DNA from: Cliona cf. orientalis
Taxonomy: Eukaryota > Porifera > Demospongiae > Clionaida > Clionaidae
Reading direction: 5' to 3'
Assembly: GCA_963930775.1 (NCBI GenBank)
Contig: OZ005695.1
Location: 6,510,001 to 6,574,000, forward strand
Length of the DNA: 64,000 bases
Part shown: piece by piece, positions 14,301-63,959 of the stretch
Layout: each line of letters starts with the position of its first letter
How positions within the stretch are numbered: position 1 is the stretch's first letter
The notes under the pieces: generated by a model
Databases searched by the model: none
Told to the model about the DNA's origin: nothing
Seen by the model: only the letters and a program-made list of their open reading frames with translations
Translations under genes and position numbers: made by a program

Positions 14301-17300
14301 CAGTCACTGAGCTACTAGAGGATAGGGACCGCGCCTATGTGTGTGGCTGTGGTATATGGTACAATGAACTAATGAGGGGCATGGCTAACAGCTTTGCGCG
14401 CTCGTCATCCTGGATATGTATACTATTGTTGTGCTACTGCAACATTGAGAATGAATTTAAGAGTTAGTGGGAAAATCATGTACTAAGATGAAAGTGGAAT
14501 AAAAAAGAACAGAAACAGCAATGAAATTGAGGATGAAGTAGGGATGGCAGAACCAAAAAGTACACAACAAGATTTGTATATATACAAGGGATAATCACGC
14601 CCACTATATATCCCTACGCTTGCTTTTTGAGTAGTTGCAGGATTAAATCTGGCTAACTGATCAAAGCTAATTATCCACCCCCCTCACCCATAGAAGCTGA
14701 CAACATGAATTTCTCCCACATGCATAGAAGACTCAATTCAAATTAAAGATAGCACCAATGGGTCACCATCAACAATCGAGAAAAGCAAATGTAGGGATGT
14801 ATAGTGGACATGATTGTCCCTATTGTTTGTGCACTTCTTGGCCCTGCCATTTCTACTTCATCCATTGCTTTTTACACTTGTATTGTGGCAGGGTGTACTT
14901 GTGGCACACTTATTGTGTACCATTACTATAACACTTGGCAATGCCTGTGTTATTACCATTATGCTACGATGGCTGCTACTATACATGTACATGTGTATAT
15001 ATGAACACTGCAATTTAGTGTGTATACATATGTACAAATTTAATGTACTAATATGTATGTACCTGAATGCACAAAAGTGAAGCGCAGTTAGGCCATTACT
15101 GTCCTGCACAAAATAACATTATTTTCATGTGATAAAAGTGATGATTCAGTTAGTATACATGTACATTGTATGTAGGGTTGCAGTCAGTGTATATGGGTTT
15201 TAAAGTGCAGCATCTATTGCAGATCAGCAAGAAACTACATGATCCATGAAACATGCATTGCGCTAAATACCAGTGCAGAAGTTGATCACATCTCATGCAT
15301 ATGTCATTGGATGGATATGCATGCCCATGGAGTCATGGCCAATCAAGATCATGACAGACTTGGCTCACTACAAAATTAATGGTAACCTGGAAGAAGACAG
15401 GAACTTCTGCTTGATATAAACAAGCAGCATATTACATCACATACATGTACATGTGTAATACGGACGGCATAGATAGTTTAAACCCGCACTGACATGTATA
15501 TGTACGGTATACTCACAGTAATATCTTTGTCTGCTCCAAACTCAAGAAGTGTTTTAATGACGTCTGTGTGCCCAGAAAAGGCTGCATGATGTAAAGCTGT
15601 TTTCCCATCAAACTCTCTATCTACCTGTTCAAAATGTCATACATCGTATCAATGTTTGAATCTCTGAACAAACTTACTTCATTCCTGAATTTCTTTAGGA
15701 ACTCCCTAATGACCGTTTCATCACCTATCTGGGCAGCTCGACAGAGAACCAGAGAATCATTCTGCTCAAAGAGAGTTTGCACCTCTGCTTCAAGCTCACT
15801 ACTGTTCCTCTGATGGAATGAAACATCTGTACAGGACATATTTAAAAAAATTACATGTGCAGAGAGAGAGAGGGAGGGAGAAGAGAGGCTATTTCTGTCA
15901 CACCCACATTATACCCAGTATAATATCATACACAGTATGTATTAAATATACCTTCAATATTTACTTCAATCTTTTCATCTGGAGTTCTAACAAGGCATTT
16001 ATGGTTGAAGATGTACAGTGTCTTGTCAATAGACACTACGACATCACCGCTATAGTTTTGACCCAAGGCCACTCCAAGCTGACCAATCGTCTATTAAAAA
16101 CAGAAACAGATTTTTAATAACGCATGACATTGTACAAGTACAGGTGCATAATAGTAATACTATAATAGTGTAATACAGGGCCTGTAGTGGGGCAAGCCTG
16201 AGCTCAAGCTCGGAGATAGAGTAGATAGTAGCTAGTTTAGCAGATAAGAAAAAAAAACAAAACTTGTGGATTCTTTTCTACAGTATTTCATACAACAAAG
16301 TGCATGGAGGCGCTAACTGGAACTTCCATCTTAAACTCTACATTCCGCTTCATTTATTGTTTTTCAGTTGAAAACGAAAAATCGTTGGCTCTTTATACAC
16401 ATGCAACTACTATGGTATTAGCAAAAGAATTGGTGATTTTCTCTGCTCAGTGTGTGGCTTACGCAGCCCATATCATCATTCCATCCACCATGACCACTCT
16501 GGAGCTTCATCACTTCAGCCATGTCATCAATGATACGAACCGATTCTCCACTCTCAAACATGGGAATATCAGCCTAGGAGTAGCGTGTGCATGTGACAGT
16601 ACATATATGAAACTGTGAGTGTATACGTGCATGTATGTGTGTGCTTGTGCCTGGGTTCCAGGCTTGGTTGACCCATCGATGCCAATCAAGGTCTTACAAC
16701 TGTTTTGGTGGCCCATGACCACCTGCATCATTGTCCAAAAATCTATAATAATTATTGTTCTACGACCCTGTGATCACCCACACCACTCTGGTGGTTTACT
16801 TATATACATGAACATGTACACGTGTACGATATGTGCATGTACTTCAGTTGCAGATGATGACCAACAATAATATAATCTTATTATATTGTATGCATATACA
16901 TGTATAATGTACATGTGCATGTTTAATTTAACATTGTTGAACAAATTCATGCATACATGCATGTACCTTTGTGAGCTGTTGTGGTTGGAGCTTCCTCTCA
17001 CTGTTCCTACCGAATTTGACCATAGCTTCACCATTGTCCAGGATGTTGTATATCATGCCTATCTGATCTGACTCCTAGGAGAGGTTACAAGGTCAATTAA
17101 GAGGGAAAACAATAATGATCACGGGATAATCCCAATTTACTTTACTTGCTCTAATTAACTGAATGGCCAAAAATAATTAATATTGTTGTCTGGTGTTAAT
17201 TTAAAATAGGATGTAAATTTAATACTGAATTCGGCCAATGGCTTATTTGAGGAGTGTAAATGGAATGGATCCGGTGAAAAAAATGGAGAAAGCACGAAAC

Positions 17301-20300
17301 TGCTGGCCGTTCGATTGATTAGAACGGGTGAGAAAATTTGAAATTTAAGATGTTCGATGAATTAGGAAGGAAATAAATTACTTAAACTTGCTGTTCAGGC
17401 TATTAGAATGTTTGAATAATTAGAATGAGTACGGTAGTGGGAAACTTTGGTGAGCTTTTGATGTGGTGAATTTTTTCAAAGGATACCAAATTTCCATTTG
17501 AAACTTGCATGCAATACGTACGTTGTATATATGCGCCTATGACACTGAATATTCAGACAACCAAATTACAATACAAGTCTCTGTGGCTCTCACCATACAT
17601 GGCACTGGCTATAGTAGATTATCTGCATGGGAAAGTATATCCATTTCACTTGGGAGCTTTGTCTAAACCTCATTCACTGTCCTTTATTAATTAGCACAAT
17701 AATGGAAAGCTTAACTCCCCAGACTTAGTTAGTAGTGTGGCACTGGGCCTACAAGTGTTTTTGATCATTGTTCCCATAATATAATATGGGAACAAATTAT
17801 GATTTAATTCCGGGAAAAGGTGATCAAAAGCAGGTGCAGAGCCTGAGAGCCATTGTATGCTAATTATCGGCGTATAATGCCATATTAGTAGCTACAGTGA
17901 GATTGGAGAGTGTGGTGTGTCATGGCTATAAATAGGGAAGGAGAGCGCTCAGCCTGTACATTCTACTCTCTGTCAGTATTCTTTGATCAGTCAAGAGTCA
18001 AGCTAACCAAGGATAAAGGATGCAGGGATATTGTTTGTTGTTCCTGACGCTGGTCTTTGTTGGAACCTGCACTGGTCATGGACATGTGCAGTGGGCTAGG
18101 CCTCGACCATCTCTTGAGTCTTCACCATTTGCATCAGTCTCCTCTACTAATGGCTCTTCCTTTGAAGAAATCCTAAAGGAATTGGATGTTCAGTATGTTA
18201 TTGTTGGGTAATCATTGTGTATTGTTCCAATTTCAATCGGCTTTAATGTGCTTGCAGATTGCGTATACAGGCTTCTGGCTGTCACTTTTCTGCTGGTACT
18301 TTTGGAGGTGGCGGTGGTGGATCGTTCAATGAACTTCCAGATAGCTGTGGAGCAGTAGTCCGAAGGATCGTACTCCGATCTGGAAGTCTTATTGATGCTA
18401 TCCAAGTCACCTATAGACTCTCGAATGGTCAAGATTCCACTGGTTCTAACTATGGTGGAACTGGAGGAGGAAAGCACACGATTGACATCGATGTTGCCGG
18501 AGGAGAGAGGCTCATTGGTGTGTTTGGAAAGAGTGGCAGCAGAGTTGATCAGCTGGGATTTGTCACAAACCAGGGGAAAATCTTCGGCCCTTATGGAGGA
18601 TGTGGTGGGGGACCCTTCACTGTCAGCAGCTGTCTTGTTCGAGGAATATTTGGAAGATCTGGCTCGGGAATTGACAGCATCGGTTTCCATTGCAGTAATC
18701 CATAGCTTTGAGAAAACTGGATCTTGATTTTTTTGATGTTTATATTGGTTTTTTTGATGTTTATATTGGTTGGACACTAATTCTTTTTGTGTAAAATTTG
18801 AAACGGAAATGAATATTAATTATTATTAGTGGTATGAACATGGCAGGTTGAGTAACGCCACTATGTAGATCTGATTTGCATAATTCCACAAATGTGCAGC
18901 TGCTGTTAGCTTCCATTGGTAATTCCTACTAATTACTGACTAGTCAAAATATAGAGCCCTCACAAAATCTGTTCATAGTTGGTCCCGTATAGGAGCTCAC
19001 CTTATAATTCCAAGTTTTCAATAAAAAGTATGTTTGATGTCCCAGTCATGGTATAATAATCGCATATTATGTATCTCCCTAGCTGTATGTCGACCGTTAG
19101 TACTTGTGTAATATTATTATTACTGTCATGCAGGGCCTGTAGTGGGGCAAGCCCGAGATCAAGCTTGGAGAAGAGTAGGTTGTAGCTAGTTCAGCAGATA
19201 ATGACTGGAAGTTCCATTTTAAACTCCACATTCCGCTTCATTTATTGGTTTTCAGTTAAAAATAAACAAATCAGAAGAATTGGTGATTTTCTCTACTCAG
19301 TGTGTGGCTAACGCAGCCCATATCATCCCATTCCTTCCCCATGATCACTTTGAAGCTTCATGATTTCAGCCATGTCATCGATGATACGAACCGACTCTCC
19401 ACTCTCAAACATGGGAATGTCAGCCTAGGAGTAGCCATACTGCGTGGCCATTAGGTTGATTAGAGTGGGTGAGAAAACTTGAAATTCAAGATGTTCGATA
19501 CTTAAACTTGCTGTTCCGGCTATTAGAATATTCTAATAATTAGAGTGAGTATGGTAGTGGGAAACTTTGGTGAGCTTTTGATTTGGTGAATCTTTTCAAA
19601 GGATACCAAATGTGGCTGTCACTGTATATGGCACTGGCTATACAGTAGATTATGTGCACAGAAAGTACGTATATCTTGGGAGCTTTGTCTAAATCTCATT
19701 CACTGTCCTCTGTGAATTAGCACAATAATGGAAAGCTCCCAGACTTAGTTTATGAGCCTCCAGTGTTTCTGATCATTGTTCCCATTGTTCCCACAGCATA
19801 TGGGAACAAATTATGATTTAATTCCGGGAAACGATGATCAAAACACTGGAATAGTTTTGATATCAACCATAGAATACTCATGCAGTCTGGGGATGAGTTG
19901 TAACCTCTTCATTATTATGCTGCATCATTTAATTTATATAGGAGCCTCAAATGAGTACGTGTATCTCTTCCTGTGCAGATAGTCTACTGCATGAACACGA
20001 GTATTATCTTGCAGGTGCAGAGACTGAGAGCCATTGTATGCTAATTAACAGCTTACAATACCATATTAGTAGCTACAGTGAGAAATTAGAGAGGAGAGTG
20101 TGGTGTGTCATGGCTATAAATAGGGAAGGAGAGCGTGCAGCCTGTACATTCTACTCTCAGTCAGTATTCTTTGATCAATCAAGAGTCAAGCTAACCGAGG
20201 ATAAAGGATGCAGGGATATTGTTTGTTGTTCCTGACACTGGTCTTTGTTGGAACCTGCACTGGTCGTGGACATGTGCAGTGGGCTAGGCCTCGACCATCT

Positions 20301-23300
20301 CTTGAGTCTTCACCATTTGCATCAGTCTCCTCTACCAATGGCTCTTCCTTTGAAGAAATCCTAAAGGAATTGGATGTTCAGTATGTGTTTGTTGGATAAT
20401 TGTTGTGTATTGTTCCAGTTTCACTTTGCTTTAATGTGCCTAGATCGCGTATACAGGCTTCTGGCTGTCACTTTTCTGCTGGTACTTTTGGAGGTGGTGG
20501 TGGTGGATCGTTCAATGAACTTCCAGATAACTGTGGAGCAGTAGTCCGAAGGATTGTGCTCCGATCTGGAAGTCTTATTGATGCTATCCAAGTCACCTAC
20601 AGACTCTAATGGTCAAGATTCCACTGGTTCTAACTATGGTGGAACTGGAGGAGGGAAGCACACGATTGACATTGATGTTGCCGGAGGAGAGAGGCTCATT
20701 GGTGTGTTTGGAAAGAGTGGCAGCAGAGTTGATCAGCTGGGATTTGTCACAAACCAGGGGAAAATCTTTGGCCCTTATGGAGGATGTGGTGGGGGACCCT
20801 TCACTGTCAGCAGCTGTCTCGTTCGAGGAATATTTGGAAGATCTGGCTCTGGAATCGACAGCATCGGTTTCCATTGCAGTAATCCATAGCTTTGAGAAAA
20901 CTGGATTTTTTTTTCGAGATTTATATTGGTTGGACACTTTAGATGCATTCTTTTTGTGTTGAAATTTGAAACTGAAAATATTAATTATTATTAGTGGTAT
21001 GAACACGGCAGGTTGAGTAATGCCACTATGTAGATTTGATTTGCATAGTTCCATAAATATGCAGCTGCTGTTAGCTGCTGTTAGCTGCCATAGGTAATTC
21101 CTACTAATTACTGATTGGTCAAAATATAGAGCCCTCACAAAATCTGTTCATAGTCAGTCCGGTATACATGTAGGAGCTTGCCTTATAATTCCAAGTTTTC
21201 AATAATCAGTATGTTTGATGTCCCAGTCATGGAACTAATATGCAGAGTTATAATAAACTCGTATGCTCTGAGAAATCAAAACCGTATCATCTCCCTAGCT
21301 ATATGTCAACCGTTCGTACTTGTGTGCACATGCAGCAGCACGAACTTTGAACCTATTTGAGTGAGACAGGAAACAGCTTTAATATACTTGTATGTTTGTG
21401 GGGTGAGGGTAGAGTTAAATTTTGAATGCTGAATTGGTGGTCATGTACACGCTCCCTATTATGCATGCACCTGTCAAGATTATGCTCCACTACCCGATGC
21501 ACAGCCTTAGGTGGGGGAATATATCGAAAATATTGCCCCCATAGGGGGGCATTCAATTTTAGAAAAAGATAAATCCCCTGTCAGTCCCACCCTTGCCCGT
21601 ACAGGGGATAGTGGGGCATAATATTGATAGGTGCATTAGCCCTGCACGTGATCTGAATGGCAACGTACGAGGCTTTGGCATGAAACCGGAAAGGTGAGTG
21701 CTGGACTACTCTGGCAAGGCTCAGGTCCATAAGTAACATCACTGGTAGATCTACTTCCCTGAGCATAAAGGTGACTGCACGGAGGCCTATCCTCTGGATA
21801 CAGGTATATACAGTGTACATGTCATAATGGTCATGGTAGGTAGCACTATTAAGTATACATGTAGGTGATCAACATCATTGGACCACTAGTAGTACTTTCA
21901 CCCTCATGGTAGCTTCAACTGACCATAGATAGTAGTATCAGCCCCATGCCATTGTGCTTTCAAAGAAATCTTACGACTTTTGCGAAGGCTCACTCCGCAC
22001 GGATGATTTTCATCACTACTATATAGCAGTATTACTTCATAGACCACATCCCTTGATGCAGGTCAACAGCAGCTGCTCGAACTCACCACAGCAATGGTGA
22101 TGTTCTTGCTCTGCTAGAACATCGAATCTACCACCAGATTATGGCAAAGAACAGACCTTGTCTCTCGTTTTGCTCGAGGCTCGGTGGCATGTGGCCTGCT
22201 CAGTAGGGCCTCTCGAAATGCCTGGCACTTTGCGCCGTTCGTTCAAGAATGCATCTCTATGGCCACCCTTGTTTGTGCACACGGCACTGCAATTCTGACC
22301 AATCATGAGGCTTCTGAACTTGTAATAGAGCTCATTTTTTATGCCGTCCAGGTTAGGACACGGATTATATAAGAAAACGTATCGCCTGAAAATATTTTTG
22401 TTGTATATAGTATAATGACATTGTCATTTCACCAAATTTTATGCTCACCCAGCTACCCACTCATCGTTGCAATAGCTCATACCAGGGCTAAGGTATCTTG
22501 ATTATCTGCCACAGTAACATCCTCCATGATTGTAACATAGTCCCCGGAACAGAAATCCCTTGGTCCAGGAGGACAGTGAGGGGCACCTGCATGGATTCAT
22601 GAACAAGAGCCATAGACATAATATTATTATGCATGTACATGTGTACATGTACTAGTGTAGCGGATAGACATGCATAGGTGCTTAAACATAATTCACTATT
22701 GTGGCCTACAGGTACATGGGCACTTATCTGGGACAGTGTACATGCAGTAAATTGCATAATTATATCAAATTTTATATGGAAGCTGCTATATATCATGAAG
22801 TGCGGAGCATGGAAGTGAACGCTTGCCCAATTATAAAAATTATGTAAATGTACATGTGCCAAATTTTAAGGAATTAATGATTCCGAAACTCACTCAAATT
22901 ATGCAATAATAATCCTTCCCAGGTAAGTGCCCATGCCGGCAAATATAGGTCAACTTCTGATACCGGTAAACAATGGACTCTTAAGTCACAAAACAACAGA
23001 ATAACAGAGATATACCAGCTTTGCTTCTTATTGGTCAGTACACGTATATCTACAACTGCATTGCAGCATGCATACCTAGGACTGGTAGGTGGTCTGGGTA
23101 GTAGTAGCCAGCAGGGGAGGGTGTGGTGTACTTGATATCAACCTGATATAGAATCAGTGTAATTATCACAAGCTAAAACCTCCATAGCATAAATTCACCT
23201 TTCCATCATGACCCAAACGACACTTGATGGTCTTGTCCGTAGCAGACCAGGTCACATCTATTGCACTCCTCTATGCCAAATTTGGGTTGTATACGTAACA

Positions 23301-26580: not shown

Positions 26581-29354
26581 TCACTCTGGGTCTGTGCCTG
26601 GGGTCACCTCATTCTCTGCGGAGGGTGGCTTGAAGGAGCTACTGCAATAAGCATCGTTGTCTGTCAGCTCAAATTGAGTGGCAGTGCTGCAAGAGGTTGT
26701 CTTCACATCGTCATGTAAATCAACATTGAGCTTCGATGGTTTTGAAGAGGTTACAAGTGTGCCAGGTGGCTGCAAGACTGACTCATATACATGTTCTGGC
26801 AAATTTTGGATTATTCTCTCCTTTTTCTTCTTAAATACAAATATCACTATTATAAAAGCTGCCATCACAGTAAGAAATGCTAAAGTGGACAACAGCACCA
26901 CCATTAGCACTGTGCGGATGGTGCTACTGTTCTCTGTAGATTCAGTAGGGAGATCTGTACAGAATAACATTAATATAACAAATCAATTTAATACATAGCT
27001 CTATAATAGCACCATTTTCATTGATGATAGTGGCAGTGGCTTTGTCAGGTTGGAGAAGAACATTAGGTGAAATTACCACGTCATCAGCACTGCTCAACTG
27101 GCCCAGGAATGTCTCTGAAGGCTCGGAGATCCCATCATCAATGATTTGGATGAATACCATTTGTATAGAGTCTCCAGTGAAGTTCAGGAGCTTAGAGGTC
27201 CCAGTATAGTCCAAGCCAGCTACAAATGAACGAAAGATTTACACACTGTGTACCTTTATCACAGTTTTAGTGTATACCTTTTGCACTTGATGCTTCTGTT
27301 ATAAACAAAATGGTCACCATTGCATCTAAACATCCCTGCAAAACTCCAATGGTGAAGTTGACTTCACCTCCTTCAAAGGTGGTAAGATTTGTGTCGAGGA
27401 AACCAATCACAGCAACTGCCAGAATCAAGATTGATCTGTAATATGAATGCGATGCTAAAATCATTCATTCAAATTCAACTTACTGTTTTCATCTAAAATT
27501 GTGACAACTGCTATTCCAGGGTTCAGTATGATGCGAGCTCTTTCATCTTCTGAAAGATTCAGCATGATGCTTCTGTTGAGTAAGTTAACCTTGTCCAGTG
27601 TGATAGTGAACTCTTCACTGTTTTCAGTAGAGTTACTGGATATGATGGGAATGATCAGACTACTGACGCGATTTCCTGCAATAAAAGTGACCTCGGAAGA
27701 ATCTATGGCACCAAAATCATCCCCTTCTGTAGTATCATCACAAAAATAGATTATAATTGATTAGCTGCATTAAAAATTGCTAACTATGGCTAACCTATTG
27801 CTGTCCCATTGTGGATTGATATGGGAACTACTGGTTGGTAGTCTCCAGGATTTCCTCGAATGAAGAAGATTTCTACCCTGAAAGATCCATCACTCTCTTG
27901 AATCTCGTACTTTGAAGTCCTGAACCCAAATATGAGTTCTAAAATATAATAATATTATCATTACTACTCTTGGACATTGCGTCCGACATTCACATTACCA
28001 TCATCATCTAAAATGAACACTCTAATAAAGTTGTGAGACGTTGATCCTCCAATCACTGATAGGTTTATGTGAAAAGACTCAGTGTTCTCAAATACATCAT
28101 CATTTATTATTGGAATACTAATCTGAGTGCTTCTAGTGGAATCTAGTGTTAGTTCGAGTGATTGTGGCTGGTGGTAGTCTTCTCCAACTGTATACCGATA
28201 ATTGTTAATATTATTATGGCTAGCTATGATTTACCAAAAGCACTGAATTCAGTGATGAAGAATTTTATTATTACTTCCTTCTGTAGTGAGCCTGATAGCA
28301 CTCCCACTTGGATGTTGACATCACTATCACTTTCTCTCACAGTGAAGTGTGAGAAGATGAACCCAATATCGGCATCTGATATTCAAGATATAAAGCCAGT
28401 TATAATATCAGAAAAATTAATGGATAGCTATGGCATTTTCAAATTCCACCTCACCATCATCATCGAAAATTTGAATGACGGCAGTATTTGGCTGCAGTAA
28501 CACACTCTCCGGTGCTAAACCAGGAAAGGAGAGAGAAGCTGATATGACTTCCATATTTTCATCAGCGTCATCATCAAGAATCGTCAGGGGTACGACTTTG
28601 ACAATATTTGAGGAATTAAAGGTCAGATGGTAGTTGAGACCTACATAGTCCTCTCCAGCTGGAGTTGGCAAAGGTCATATCTGTGAAAATAATAAATTGA
28701 TGAAAATAAGTACCTGTAGCAGTTGAGTCATGAGTCGAGATGCTGATGATTATTTCTCTCTCTAGTGACCCTCCAGATACTACTATCTTGATGATTGTAG
28801 CTATAGTACTGTTCTCATTCACAGTGTACTGTGTACTTTGAAATCCAATTGTGATAACTGGAATCAGAAATTAAATTATGTATGCATGTACATACAGTAA
28901 TACTCAAAAAGCTGACAAATAACTATGTATGTGATACAGGCTCACTCTCATTGTCAGTGATGTTCACAGTAGCCAATTGAACACCAATGTGAAGTCTTGA
29001 AATAACATTGTTAGTAGAGAGAGCAGCAATGAAATTCTCGACATTATTTTCAAATCTATCATCATCAAGTATTTCAACATCGACTATGTGAGATCTCAAA
29101 TTGGGACCAAATGTTAGTGGCCGATTTAGAATGGCTAGGTAATCCAAGCCATCTAAAATTAATGATTAGCTACTAATCATCTGGCAGATATTATTTTGAC
29201 AAAATTATACCTATTGCAGATCCACTCTGTGTGGTGAGGTTCACTATCACCTCATATCCAAGCTACCCAGATATCAGCTGAACAGTAAGACTGGTAAACT
29301 GATCAACTCCCTCAACCACAGTGTAAGCAGGAGGTACAAAACCAATCACAACAT
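26581..29354 (-). CDS. Calx-beta repeat membrane protein, intact 3' part
   Basis: Exons (transcription order): 29211-29354, 28946-29152, 28714-28857, 28455-28658, 28235-28375, 27999-28187, 27795-27938, 27484-27726, 27278-27415, 27013-27219 and 26581-26954. Every intron is short and in phase 1. Each Calx-beta repeat is split into an A exon (starting near IGF) and a B exon (usually ending DDD). The last exon has a 25-residue transmembrane helix, a KKKKER stop-transfer and a tail of about 80 residues with HVYESV. Calx-beta domains bind calcium in Na/Ca exchangers, integrin beta-4 and sponge or echinoderm adhesion factors; an extracellular adhesion role is inferred. The first exon listed has an in-frame TAG (29263-29265); all others are clean. 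Confidence 0.82.
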
Positions 29355-32300
29355 CTGATAGAATAATATTATCACAGAAAAAATATTTAATGACTACATG
29401 TTGATTACCATCATCGTCAATGATAGTGATAGAAGCTGCAGCAGGCCGGGTTAAGCTGAACACGACCAAGATCAGTCTGATTCTCCAGTGAAAGAGATGC
29501 TGTAAATACTCTATCACTCTCCAAGAGTAGGTTATTTACTATTGATACATACACAGTTTGAGTTGTTGAAGAACTAGAGAATATTAGAACTTCTGAAATG
29601 GGAATGTAATCCAATGGAGCTATAAATAAGTAATAGGATACATATTATTATTATAGTGAATTTTTTCCTACCATGAGCTGAGTTATCAGCCGTAGTGATT
29701 CGGACTTGAACAGTGTTTCCTTCACCTATTGTCATAATATAATATTGAAGACACTTACAATCAGAGCCACAGTTCCATTGGACTCAGAAGAAGATAAAGA
29801 AGTACTATTAGGATTGAATCCAATCAATATCTCTGCATGTAAGAAGATATATAGCATGCAGGTATGATAATCTTGGTGGATCATTTCAACCAATACACAC
29901 ATATACTTTTATGATCATAATATAATAGTAGCAGTAGCGATAGTAGGCTCCAAATATAATATAGTCCCTGGAAGGATATCAGCAGCAATCAGCCGGCCCG
30001 TTAAAGGTCTCGGATCTTTCAAAAATATTGTCGTCAATGATACCAACAAAAACAGACTTCATTACTGACTGAGGAGTCATAGCCAGAGAGGTAGTAGTTG
30101 CATTGTAGTCTAGCCCAGCTAAATGCATTTATTTCAGGAGGAAAAAAAAGAGTATAGCTCATCGTAATCATGACTAAATTGGGTGTGCAACAAAAAATCT
30201 TGGGCAGAGTTGTCAATGGTACTGAAGTTTATGGACTCATTGACTCTTAACACTCTAGAAAGAACTGCAATACGAAATATTATACTCCTCCACTATCCTC
30301 TGATGCATTTAGAACTGTGCTTTGAAATCCAATGATTGCCACTATAGGGAACAAGATAGTTGTTATGAAATATCTTGTCTATAAGCTGATACCATCATCA
30401 TCCAGGATCTTAACAGTAGCAATCTTTGGGTTTATGATCAGACGATCTCTCTCCTGATTTGTTTGCTCAATAGCTGCTCCACCAGCAGTACCAGCAAGAA
30501 ATGCTGATGATAATACAACTGTGAAAGTCTCATATTATATCTCACTGTCAATGAGGTCATCTGATAGTATCTGAACTGTTAGATATTGAATTCTATTAGC
30601 ATTTGTAAAAAGATTGACCGATTAACCACAGAAGTGTAGTCAACACTGCCTGTGAATTGGAGTACAATGACACCCAATGCAATAATATGTTAATGAAGTA
30701 ATTTTACCAGTGGCTGTTCCATGAAAAGCGGATGCATTCACATGCGGCACAAAATGTCCAGCATTGCCACTTATGAAGAAGACGCCAAGGTCTACAGATC
30801 CTACACGTTCCCACATAGAGTACACAATTGGATCAAATCCAAATGTCAGAACTAAAATTAATATAGACAATGTCATAATTATTATAATAATATGTTGAAA
30901 GTATTGCATGCTTGCTGCTGGGTTGTACACAGATATTAATGTCGTTTAGCTTGGCTTAATATTATTGCAATGCCATGTGTATATACAATTATTGTATGTG
31001 TATTATACAATTATTGTATGTGTATATATGATAATATTATTAAGCCAAGCTAAATGACTACATACAATAATATTAAGCCAAGCAGCTAAATGATGTTAAT
31101 GTCTGTGTACAATCCAGCAGCAAACATGCAATACTTTCAACACTAACCATCATCATCCAGTATGGTGACTTGTGCAGTGTTTGGTGTCAAGGTTACCCTA
31201 GAAGACGGAGTGCCGGAGAAAGCAAGACTGGCACCAAACAGCTCTATTAGCTCAAAATTAATGTTGTATCATCTATGAGAGGAACTGAAGCATCGACTGT
31301 CCTGGTGACAGTAAACTCTATTGCAGCAAAGCCACTATAGTCACTGCTGTCTGCATGCATGTATGAGGAGAGATGCACGATTCTTTGTATTTATAGCTAG
31401 CTAGTTGAATGCATGGCAGATCAGTGCGATTTACCAGAAGCAGAAATAGCATTAGTTGAGAACTGGATCACCACTGATCTCTCCAGTGAGCCTTGGATCA
31501 CTCCAATCTGGATGATAGCTTCGCCATCATTCTCACTCACTGTGTAGGAAGTGTTCAGGAAACCAATTACAACAGCTGCAAAGTTTAAAATTGCTAATAC
31601 TCGTGGCAATTACATAACAAACGTGCTTCAGATCTCACTGTCATTGTCTAAGATTTTAATGGCAGAAACATTTGGATTGAGTATTATATTTGACTATTGA
31701 AATGAATAATAAAATCTCAGCTCTAATGTAAAATTTTCAACTTTATGCTCAAACAGTGGATCATCTACGATAGTCACATTGAATGAATATTGGCGATTTT
31801 TATTATCAAAGGTCAGGATTGCAAAAATCTCTTCATAGTCAATTCCTCCAGCTAACAAATTTGAAGATTATGTGTCAATACCTTGTGACACATTGGCTTA
31901 CTTGCTGATTTAGATACTGACTGAATGTAAAGATCTATAGATTCTGAAGCTGGTAGAGGCTGATTATCAGAAACATTGAGAACTTGGATGTCAACTTGCA
32001 GAGTTCTGATACTTCATCAACAGTGTAACTTGTATTGGTAAATCCAATGATAACTATTATAGCTAAATAAGAAGAAAACATAACATGATAAAGATTTAAT
32101 TACAATGAGTTTATAAACTTACAGTCATCATCTAAAATTGTAATAAAGATTTTGGATGATGAATATTCAGGATATAGAGAAATTGGAAAATTTTCCACCT
32201 CAATTTCTTCATGGAGATTATCTGCAAGTAACTCAAATGGAAAGGAATCCTCTGTTGAAGGGGGGGGGGGGGGGAAGAGGTTAGTGAACCTGTATGACCA

Positions 32301-62206: not shown

Positions 62207-63959
62207 TTAAACGGCTAATCTACAATTATTATTCACCTTGCACTGGAGGCATTTCTTTGCCCTTTTGGAGCACATGAGACAGATGATCTCGTGGCCGCAG
62301 GGCAGTAGCCTCACCGTGGCAGGCTCATCACACAGTATACAAACCGGGCCATTAGAGCATGTAGGTGAACTATCAGATTCTATGCAATTCTTTTCAGTTT
62401 GACCAGCACTAGCAGCTGCTATATGATTGGAAGCTATCAAGTCTCTTTCAGTGTGTACAGTTTTTGAAGAAGGGTCTGTAGATTTTTGATGAATTTGATC
62501 ACACAGGGGCTGTTCGGGGAGTCCTCGTATTGTATCTGAAAGATTGAGTGGAGAGTCTAGGTGATGTGGTCCATGTTCTAGCTTAGATTTCACAGAGTTT
62601 GAAACTGTTGTTTCAGATTTCTCATCTTCTACCTTTTTCAGACTACCATGAAATTTACTGTCCCTACATGTGGTCATTGTGGTATCATGGCAATATTCTA
62701 TTGATTTTGTTTTCTCTCACCCTTTGTGTTCTCCCGCAAAGCCTGCCATTGTGACAGCCAATACTGGATCACATATCTCCAATGGAGATAGTCCAGCGTA
62801 GTTGTTAGTGTACATGTCAACTCCAACATGTATCAAAAAGCAACAAAGAACAGCTTGAGGATTAGCAGCGTCAAGGATTTGCTGCACCTATATGCATTAA
62901 CAATACCATGGTAACACATTTTGAGCGTCAGTCAGGCTATTGAAATAAGATGGACCCTGAGACAAATTAAAGAGTTATCACAAGACAGTCTATAGCTGTG
63001 TAATAAGAAAATTAATAGTGGCTTTCTGCTCATGTGCATGCAGGGTATACGTATGTGCTCTAGAGAGCGCTAGTTAGTTTCTGCTATGATGCTGACAGAT
63101 CCCTAAGAAGACTGCTTATCACAATATTTATTATTATGGCAAAACACTCAGTCTGGTAGCACCCAAGCAAAGCTATACTGTGTGTGGTGTGCACTCAAGG
63201 GTGATGCAAAAAATGTTTAACTTCCATAAAAAATACATGTGCAATATCACAACAGTTAGCTACTATAATACCTTCTTGATCTCTGGACATTCGTCAGTTG
63301 GTAGCTCATACTCGGTTGAGCTATTTCTGATCACCAGGTGGAGGGCATTGTCTCCATCCTCATCCACAGCACTGAGATCGGCTCCAAAACCAACCAACCG
63401 CTCCAGCACTTTCAGGCTACCACTTATAGCAGCAATTAGGAAAGGAGTGAGCAGACTACTGTTCCTAGCTTCCACATCACAACTGGACTACAAAAAGAAT
63501 ACAGCATTCTGTTTACTATAATATGCACTGTACATGTATAGCGGGTAATTTTCGAGGGATTCAATTTTCACGGGGAATTATCCTGGCCAGCATATTTTTT
63601 ATTGGATTCAGCAGGGATGTCCAGGATTACCAGATGTCCTGGTCCCCTAACCCTAATCCTAACCCTATCTCCATACCCACCCCCTAACCCCAGGATACCC
63701 TATGGCAATCCTGGATATGTGCCCCAGGGATGTCTAGCCAGGGACCAGGCATGTGGCCCACACTCAGTAAGAGAGGCAGGGCCAAGTGATGGGGATGAAA
63801 TAAAGTAACATTGAAGGCATATTATATACCTGCTTGAGTAGAAAATCAGCTACCTCAAGCTTATCACGTACAGCAGCAAAATGGAGCATGCTCAGGTTAA
63901 TCTCACCACCCTTTGTGTTGATTAGCTCAGGCTGGTGACGAAGAAACTCTTCAATCAAC
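62207..63959 (-). CDS. MIB2-like: Second MIB2-like protein, C-terminal part with ankyrin repeats and a RING
   Basis: Exons 63830-63959, 63272-63487, 62721-62887 and 62207-62663 join in frame; the 5' part is beyond the window. The first two encode ankyrin repeats (FLRHQPELINTKGGEINLS, LLTPFLIAAISGSLKVLE, VDEDGDNALHLV). The third matches the last ankyrin-like unit of the first MIB2-like gene (AVLCCFLIHVGVDMYTNN against [18 protein letters not shown]). The last exon adds a polar linker of about 95 residues and a C3HC4-type RING: CILC, PCGHE, CLMC, CLQC, close to the MIB2 penultimate RING. The protein stops about 10 residues later, so there is a single RING instead of the two of vertebrate MIB2. 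RING-type E3 activity is expected. Confidence 0.85.
63643..63675. repeat. Short telomere-like patch
   Basis: CCCCTAACCCTAATCCTAACCC-like (three to four imperfect CCCTAA units), in an intron of the second MIB2-like gene. Confidence 0.5.

Follow-up and report, generated by a model that had tools for sequence, protein, structure and literature searches.

What becomes of a host gene when a gene nested in one of its introns is duplicated together with exons of the host? We examined this question in a 64,000-bp stretch of the genome of the sponge Cliona cf. orientalis (the window, contig OZ005695.1, positions 6,510,001 to 6,574,000; all positions below are counted from its first letter), in which two copies of a jacalin-type lectin gene lie within intron 7 of a Mind bomb (MIB)-like gene. 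We consider it highly probable that, taken as a whole, the locus records a duplication of the nested lectin together with host exons 8 and 9, a later loss or breakage of the copied exons, and a recent loss of the reading frame of lectin 2. Models of the host and lectin genes were built from sequence, not transcripts. The parts of the host that matter here are as follows, with primes marking the copies in the second unit.

22483 to 22586, minus strand: host exon 7, by order the first half of SH3/REP repeat 1; donor GTATGA located, acceptor placed by eye.
17075 to 22482, minus strand: host intron 7, 5408 bp from its splice sites, containing both lectins and exon 9'.
16967 to 17074, minus strand: host exon 8, 108 nt, phase 0-0, by order the second half of repeat 1.
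16463 to 16573, minus strand: host exon 9, 111 nt, phase 0-0, the first half of repeat 2 (SH3_15, 36 bits).
15952 to 16090, minus strand: host exon 10, the second half of repeat 2; acceptor located, donor GTATAT placed by eye.

The host was assigned to the Mind-bomb family because it combines MIB_HERC2, ZZ, SH3_15 and ankyrin domains. In the profile scan, MIB_HERC2 (89.3 bits) and ZZ (47.9 bits) were each above cut-off, as were ankyrin matches in three pieces of the gene; a further MIB_HERC2 piece scored 15.4 bits alone, under the cut-off. SH3_15 reached 59.6 bits over exons 7-10, with repeat 2 clear and repeat 1 sub-threshold. No RING match was found in the host pieces that were domain-scanned, and the single C3HC4-like pattern across the window (62240-62341) is not near the 3' end of the host, an end that was not modelled exon by exon. 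The host matched two solved sequences, 4tse and 4xi6, both of them MIB1, and with solved-sequence matches to MIB1 only, MIB-like appears to be the safe name. According to PMC2770060, Mindbomb is one of nine animal-specific Notch-pathway genes and is present in the sponge Amphimedon.

The two nested genes have the same structure.

18020 to 18705, plus strand: lectin 1, with exon 1 at 18020-18192, an intron at 18193-18257 and exon 2 at 18258-18705; 206 aa with a jacalin domain.
20208 to 20889, plus strand: lectin 2, structured as lectin 1, with a 2-bp deletion and a TAA ending at 20609 after 112 codons.

An original prediction, made from the letters of this DNA, had placed two lectin units inside intron 7 on the strand opposite to the host, and the strands and splice sites bear this out. 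Lectin 1 (18020-18705) lies wholly within the intron (17075-22482), as a nested gene does, and is intact over its 206 codons, but the second of the two predicted units has a broken frame. Lectin 1 is a jacalin-like lectin that matched PF01419 with 73.3 bits (cut-off 22) over positions 2-136 of 136. The 112-residue product of lectin 2 gave no PF01419 match at E up to 1, and the DNA past the break still matched at 53.2 bits (positions 40-136). The best of the 38 solved sequences matching lectin 1 was 1x1v (E 4.7e-14), listed as 'lectin' and which we take to be banana lectin; ZG16 (3apa) was matched with E 1.5e-6. Like these jacalin-related lectins, lectin 1 has a single jacalin domain; unlike them, it has a leader-like start and further residues before the domain, mostly from a separate first exon. 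The C-terminal GSGID presumably corresponds to the GXXXD binding motif, and the product may be a secreted sugar-binding protein. The sequence TATAAATA is present upstream of both lectins and of a paralogue (L029), and another paralogue (L032) has TATAAAAA there.

Both lectins belong to repeated segments, which also hold the host exons in question.

16176 to 19110 (right end approximate), plus strand: tandem unit 1, with exon 9, exon 8, an element resembling a miniature inverted-repeat transposable element (MITE), and lectin 1.
19131 to 21325 (left end approximate), plus strand: tandem unit 2, with exon 9', a remnant of the element, and lectin 2.

The units align end to end, spaced by 2955 at the left end and by 2184-2188 across the lectins, and the six longest repeat families (97-300 bases, 92-98% identity) are far above chance. 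The repeat search and the alignment agree that the two units are collinear, as had been predicted. A tandem duplication of the nested lectin with host exons, followed by loss of exon 8', is thus well supported.

Over eight non-coding blocks, the units differ at 100 of 1193 bases (8.4%). Differences per base are 0.093 beside exon 9, 0.082 in exon 9 and 0.107 in the element. Between the element and the lectin start, the blocks give 0.076, 0.045 (over just 66 bases) and 0.058. The values fall to 0.017 and 0.027 in the two lectin exons, are 0.159 in the lectin intron (63 bases), and amount to 0.076 and 0.088 downstream. Kimura two-parameter (K80) distances are 0.06-0.12 in the six larger non-coding blocks, with outliers in the hairpin (0.047, 66 bases) and the lectin intron (0.18, 63 bases). 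Since these values and the silent divergence of the lectins (dS 0.083) mostly agree, a single date of duplication fits. It is very improbable that the units are instead two haplotypes that the assembler placed one after the other. High heterozygosity does occur in animal genomes, and the large indels between the units would suit divergent alleles, but the units differ by about 8% both in non-coding sequence and at silent sites, the assembly consists of 149 contigs for 217 Mb, and no repeat among 20 of the 25 families, those listed, covers exon 8 or 10, although joined haplotypes would normally have their flanks doubled too.

Starting from a tandem duplication, the differences in content between the units are explained by later losses.

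16585 to 17298, no strand: 714 bp of unit 1 absent from unit 2, comprising exon 8 and the left part of the element; junction at 19435/19439.
19844 to 20010, no strand: 167 bp of unit 2 absent from unit 1; gap between 17829 and 17830.
17134 to 17441, no strand: copy of the dispersed element, with inverted terminal repeats and its inner part missing; the right part is also in unit 2 (19439-19561).

A loss of about 680 bp with exon 8 had been predicted; exon 8 is indeed absent from unit 2, but the missing sequence corresponds to 714 bp of today's unit 1. Several smaller pieces of unit 1 are lacking from unit 2 as well. Within the 167-bp piece, positions 19913-19987 are 81% identical to the region upstream of paralogue lectin L032. 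An insertion of these 167 bp in unit 2 was rejected, part of the piece being common to that paralogue, which argues that unit 1 lost it. Erosion was mutual, each unit having lost things that the other kept. A hairpin-like sequence occurs at 17752-17829 in unit 1 and at 19760-19849 in unit 2; its arms, CCAGTGTTTcTGATCAT and ATGATCAAAACACTGG, are both present in unit 2; in unit 1 the right one is truncated.

The right part of the dispersed element occurs in at least 34 other places in the genome. Sixteen copies were fetched; 15 of them end on the right in AGTACGGTA, the exception being L043 with one change, and 15 (all but L046) have the inverted counterpart at the left end, in some with a change, so that the element looks like a MITE. 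Both units contain the right part and the sequence flanking it on the right, which indicates insertion before the duplication. The copy in unit 1 is without about 185-231 inner bases present in other copies. Its left part is only 67-74% identical to 15 of the 16 copies (L046 aligned in two short pieces), and its right part matches all 16 at 89-93% identity. The breakpoint of the unit 2 deletion lies no more than a few bases from the border of the missing inner part in unit 1. Unit 2 keeps about 3 bases resembling element sequence, which bear on whether the middle was lost before the duplication.

The copied exon that remains is broken.

19313 to 19424, minus strand: exon 9', a copy of exon 9, 112 nt, with a +2/-1 indel, an internal TGA and donor GTTAGC.

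The copy lies exactly where it had been predicted. The single inserted base described for it is right as a net length (112 vs 111 nt), but the change consists of two added bases and one removed, which give the internal TGA. The donor, which had been called lost, retains its GT and has changed at +3 (GTAAGC to GTTAGC), so it is weakened. Scanned alone, exon 9' matches SH3_15 weakly, under the cut-off (16 bits, E 2.9). After the deletion, 11 bases of the old intron remain upstream of it, AG included, and beyond them lies element DNA with a second AG 15 bases further upstream. The predicted order, in which exon 8 was lost and the copy of exon 9 then decayed, is plausible but not proven: with 11 intron bases left before exon 9', one event may have disabled both exons 8' and 9'.

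The substitutions in exon 9' hint at a period of use. In the 29 codons before the indel, exons 9 and 9' show nine differences, seven silent and two altering an amino acid (V21I and G27D); counted in the reverse direction, they are six and three. In a simulation with exon 9' neutral and exon 9 conserved, at least seven of nine differences were silent in 1.4% of 3172 runs (P = 0.014), against 25% of 2934 runs with a dN/dS ratio (omega) of 0.3 on the 9' branch and 67% of 1693 with omega 0.1, for few sites, with equal branch rates assumed and the indel codons excluded. This mostly silent pattern hints, without proving it, that exon 9' was in use for some time after the duplication. The exon copy is broken, as the predicted decay of an unwanted exon implies, but the silent bias suggests that decay may not be the whole story. 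To the alternative that exon 9' was never coding and evolved neutrally from the duplication onward, we give an even chance. The excess of silent changes in the simulation speaks against it, but the overall divergence of exon 9' (0.082) equals that of the surrounding non-coding DNA, and the amino-acid changes reach five, beside seven silent ones, when the two codons beside the indel are aligned. V21I also looks derived in exon 9', since repeat-2-like paralogue pieces have V; the origin of G27D is less clear, as paralogues show G, N, S and once D at that place.

The same features bear on whether exon 9' might be a live, regulated poison exon, whose stop codon lowers host mRNA when it is spliced in. 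Its acceptor AG and donor GT are intact and its differences before the indel are biased to silent ones, as such an exon would have them. Yet the region upstream of the acceptor has been replaced by the element DNA with its second AG, GTTAGC pairs less well with U1 than GTAAGC, and overall divergence is like that of the non-coding surroundings. We regard this as most unlikely.

How the host could have tolerated the copied exons is suggested by their structure. Junctions 7/8, 8/9 and 9/10 are all in phase 0, and exons 8 and 9 are multiples of three that each encode about half of an SH3/REP repeat; the duplication is therefore predicted to have given an in-frame product and not a wreck. Because the introns cut each repeat in half, a hybrid middle repeat would have been possible. 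The peptides of exons 9 and 10 form one SH3_15 repeat of 49.4 bits, and those of exons 9 and 8, when joined, scored higher as a whole repeat, at 53.9 bits, a prediction from today's exons. It nevertheless seems doubtful to us that the host for a time made a functional three-repeat protein with a hybrid middle repeat, and that a single deletion undid this gain with both lectin copies kept.

The evidence that lectin 2 was maintained comes from comparison with its relatives. There are 32 jacalin matches genome-wide, and the closest lectin relatives found lie 1 Mb away on the same chromosome. In a jacalin tree of 20 rows (19 of the 20 fetched loci, L023 being excluded, plus the part of lectin 2 after the break; 12 of the 32 matches had no locus and are hence outside the tree), the two window lectins pair (96/90), and members at 7.57-7.60 Mb join them next with lower support (83/87, 81/79). 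These relatives form a cluster on both strands (L029-L032, C7:7.563-7.603 Mb), including a pair of full-length genes of 207 codons, at 7.570 and 7.599 Mb, and several partial copies.

Lectins 1 and 2 differ by 12 silent and three amino-acid changes (dS 0.083, dN 0.007, 462 sites), with no amino-acid difference in the 92 codons after the gap. When the differences were polarised by the two full-length paralogues, all three amino-acid changes fell on lectin 1; four of the silent changes fell on lectin 2, three on lectin 1 and five were not placed. Lectin 2 thus carries no amino-acid change where about 21 would be expected had it been neutral since the duplication (divergence 0.09), and is therefore likely to have been under selection until recently. 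Gene conversion was considered for the similarity of the lectin exons and dropped: dS is near the non-coding divergence, and purifying selection is therefore enough. The frame loss of lectin 2 would accordingly be recent, not fixed, or an assembly error. If the 2-bp gap came from an error in sequencing or assembly, or from a rare allele, lectin 2 would be intact in the living animal, which would suit both the lack of amino-acid change by the outgroup comparison and the identity of the 92 codons past the gap. The gap, however, lies outside any homopolymer, and an assembly of such contiguity is probably accurate at such sites; we consider this explanation rather unlikely.

Taken together, the history may have run as follows. 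A jacalin-type lectin with its own TATA promoter would have stood antisense within intron 7 of the MIB-like gene when a segment of about 3 kb, with exon 9, exon 8, the MITE-like element and the lectin, was duplicated once in tandem. The host would then have had the exon order 7-8'-9'-8-9-10, and the duplicated exons 8 and 9 would have added 219 nt in frame, giving one extra hybrid repeat (9' plus 8), presumably a whole third repeat. A later deletion in unit 2 would have taken away exon 8' together with the intron upstream of exon 9' except for its last 11 bases, the indel would have put a stop in exon 9', and host mRNA would presumably have returned to 7-8-9-10. Purifying selection would have acted on both lectins through most of the period after the duplication, with the frame of lectin 2 lost recently. 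In this account the anatomy, the indels and the counts of substitutions are observed, and the sequence of events, the splicing and the role of the product as a secreted sugar-binding protein are inferred.

Several observations weigh against this history. The exon 7+8 peptide is only sub-threshold for SH3_15 (15.3 bits vs a cut-off of 24). Seven silent changes in about 17 silent sites of exons 9 and 9' are far above the 8-9% of the surroundings, for which we found no explanation, so that a further cause is possible; these changes were counted pairwise, without polarisation by a DNA-level outgroup. The element is without its inner part in both units, with breakpoints no more than a few bases apart, which is unexplained. 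The 2-bp deletion in lectin 2 and the indel in exon 9' both come from one assembly.

Half-repeat pieces appear common in the family, since at least seven other MIB-like loci show SH3_15 as four ordered half-repeats (profile about 1-35, 33-67, 1-35 and 32-67, in our reading of the 47 SH3_15 matches in the genome). No third SH3/REP repeat was seen at any locus among these 47 matches. In one of the seven loci (L059), the pieces are ordered as in the host, with a gap of about 640 bp between the 7-like and 8-like pieces; they were named exon-7-, 8- and 9-like by order, because the halves of one repeat can be aligned to those of the other as well. That locus contains none of the 32 jacalin matches. 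MIB-like genes look greatly expanded genome-wide, many of the 47 matches being clustered with two split repeats each; some of the matches are below cut-off, and 34, a figure not recounted, are over or near it. They include places at C8:7.25-7.41 Mb, C7:6.32-6.66 Mb, C12:2.454 Mb and C4:6.946 Mb. The RING finger (C3HC4-like) at 62240-62341 on the minus strand, at the right end of the window, is probably the 3' end of a neighbouring MIB-like gene that may continue into L059. The gene directly upstream of the host (26584-32100, minus strand) has apparent repeated Calx-beta segments (one piece scanned, 31.8 bits) and a hydrophobic stretch resembling a membrane span.

The kinds of event at this locus (nested gene, tandem duplication, exon loss) are known, and what is of interest is their combination with a phase-matched pair of half-repeat exons; the locus is otherwise an ordinary gene-family history. 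Tandem exon duplication adds repeat domains when phase-matched exons are copied in frame. At this locus the extra exons did not last, one being deleted and the other broken, and a separate gene was part of the duplicated block. LRRTM genes, nested in opposite orientation within alpha-catenin genes, offer a parallel (PMC3933685): host and nested gene are unrelated there too, the smaller one is intronic and read from the other strand, and such nested structures can be duplicated or lost. There, whole hosts were duplicated with the nested structure, presumably with genome duplication, whereas here a 3-kb piece with two host exons was copied in tandem inside one host gene. The ng genes and Sgs4 inside one intron of Drosophila dunce are likewise several secreted-protein genes clustered in one host intron, and the part of that source consulted mentions no copied host exon (PMC10835880). 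In the literature searched (nested genes, exon duplication, jacalin/sponge, Mind bomb), we found no account of a nested gene whose duplication had taken a host exon with it.

The locus indicates how a host can withstand duplication of a gene in its intron: phase-matching of the copied exons would preserve the frame, and a single deletion is enough to bring back the original mRNA. Of the two lectin copies, it is the broken one that carries no amino-acid change since the duplication, a warning against taking intactness as a sign of which copy mattered. If the host did make a three-repeat protein, the locus would be a gain of a domain repeat caught in the act, hitch-hiking on the duplication of a nested gene and then reversed.

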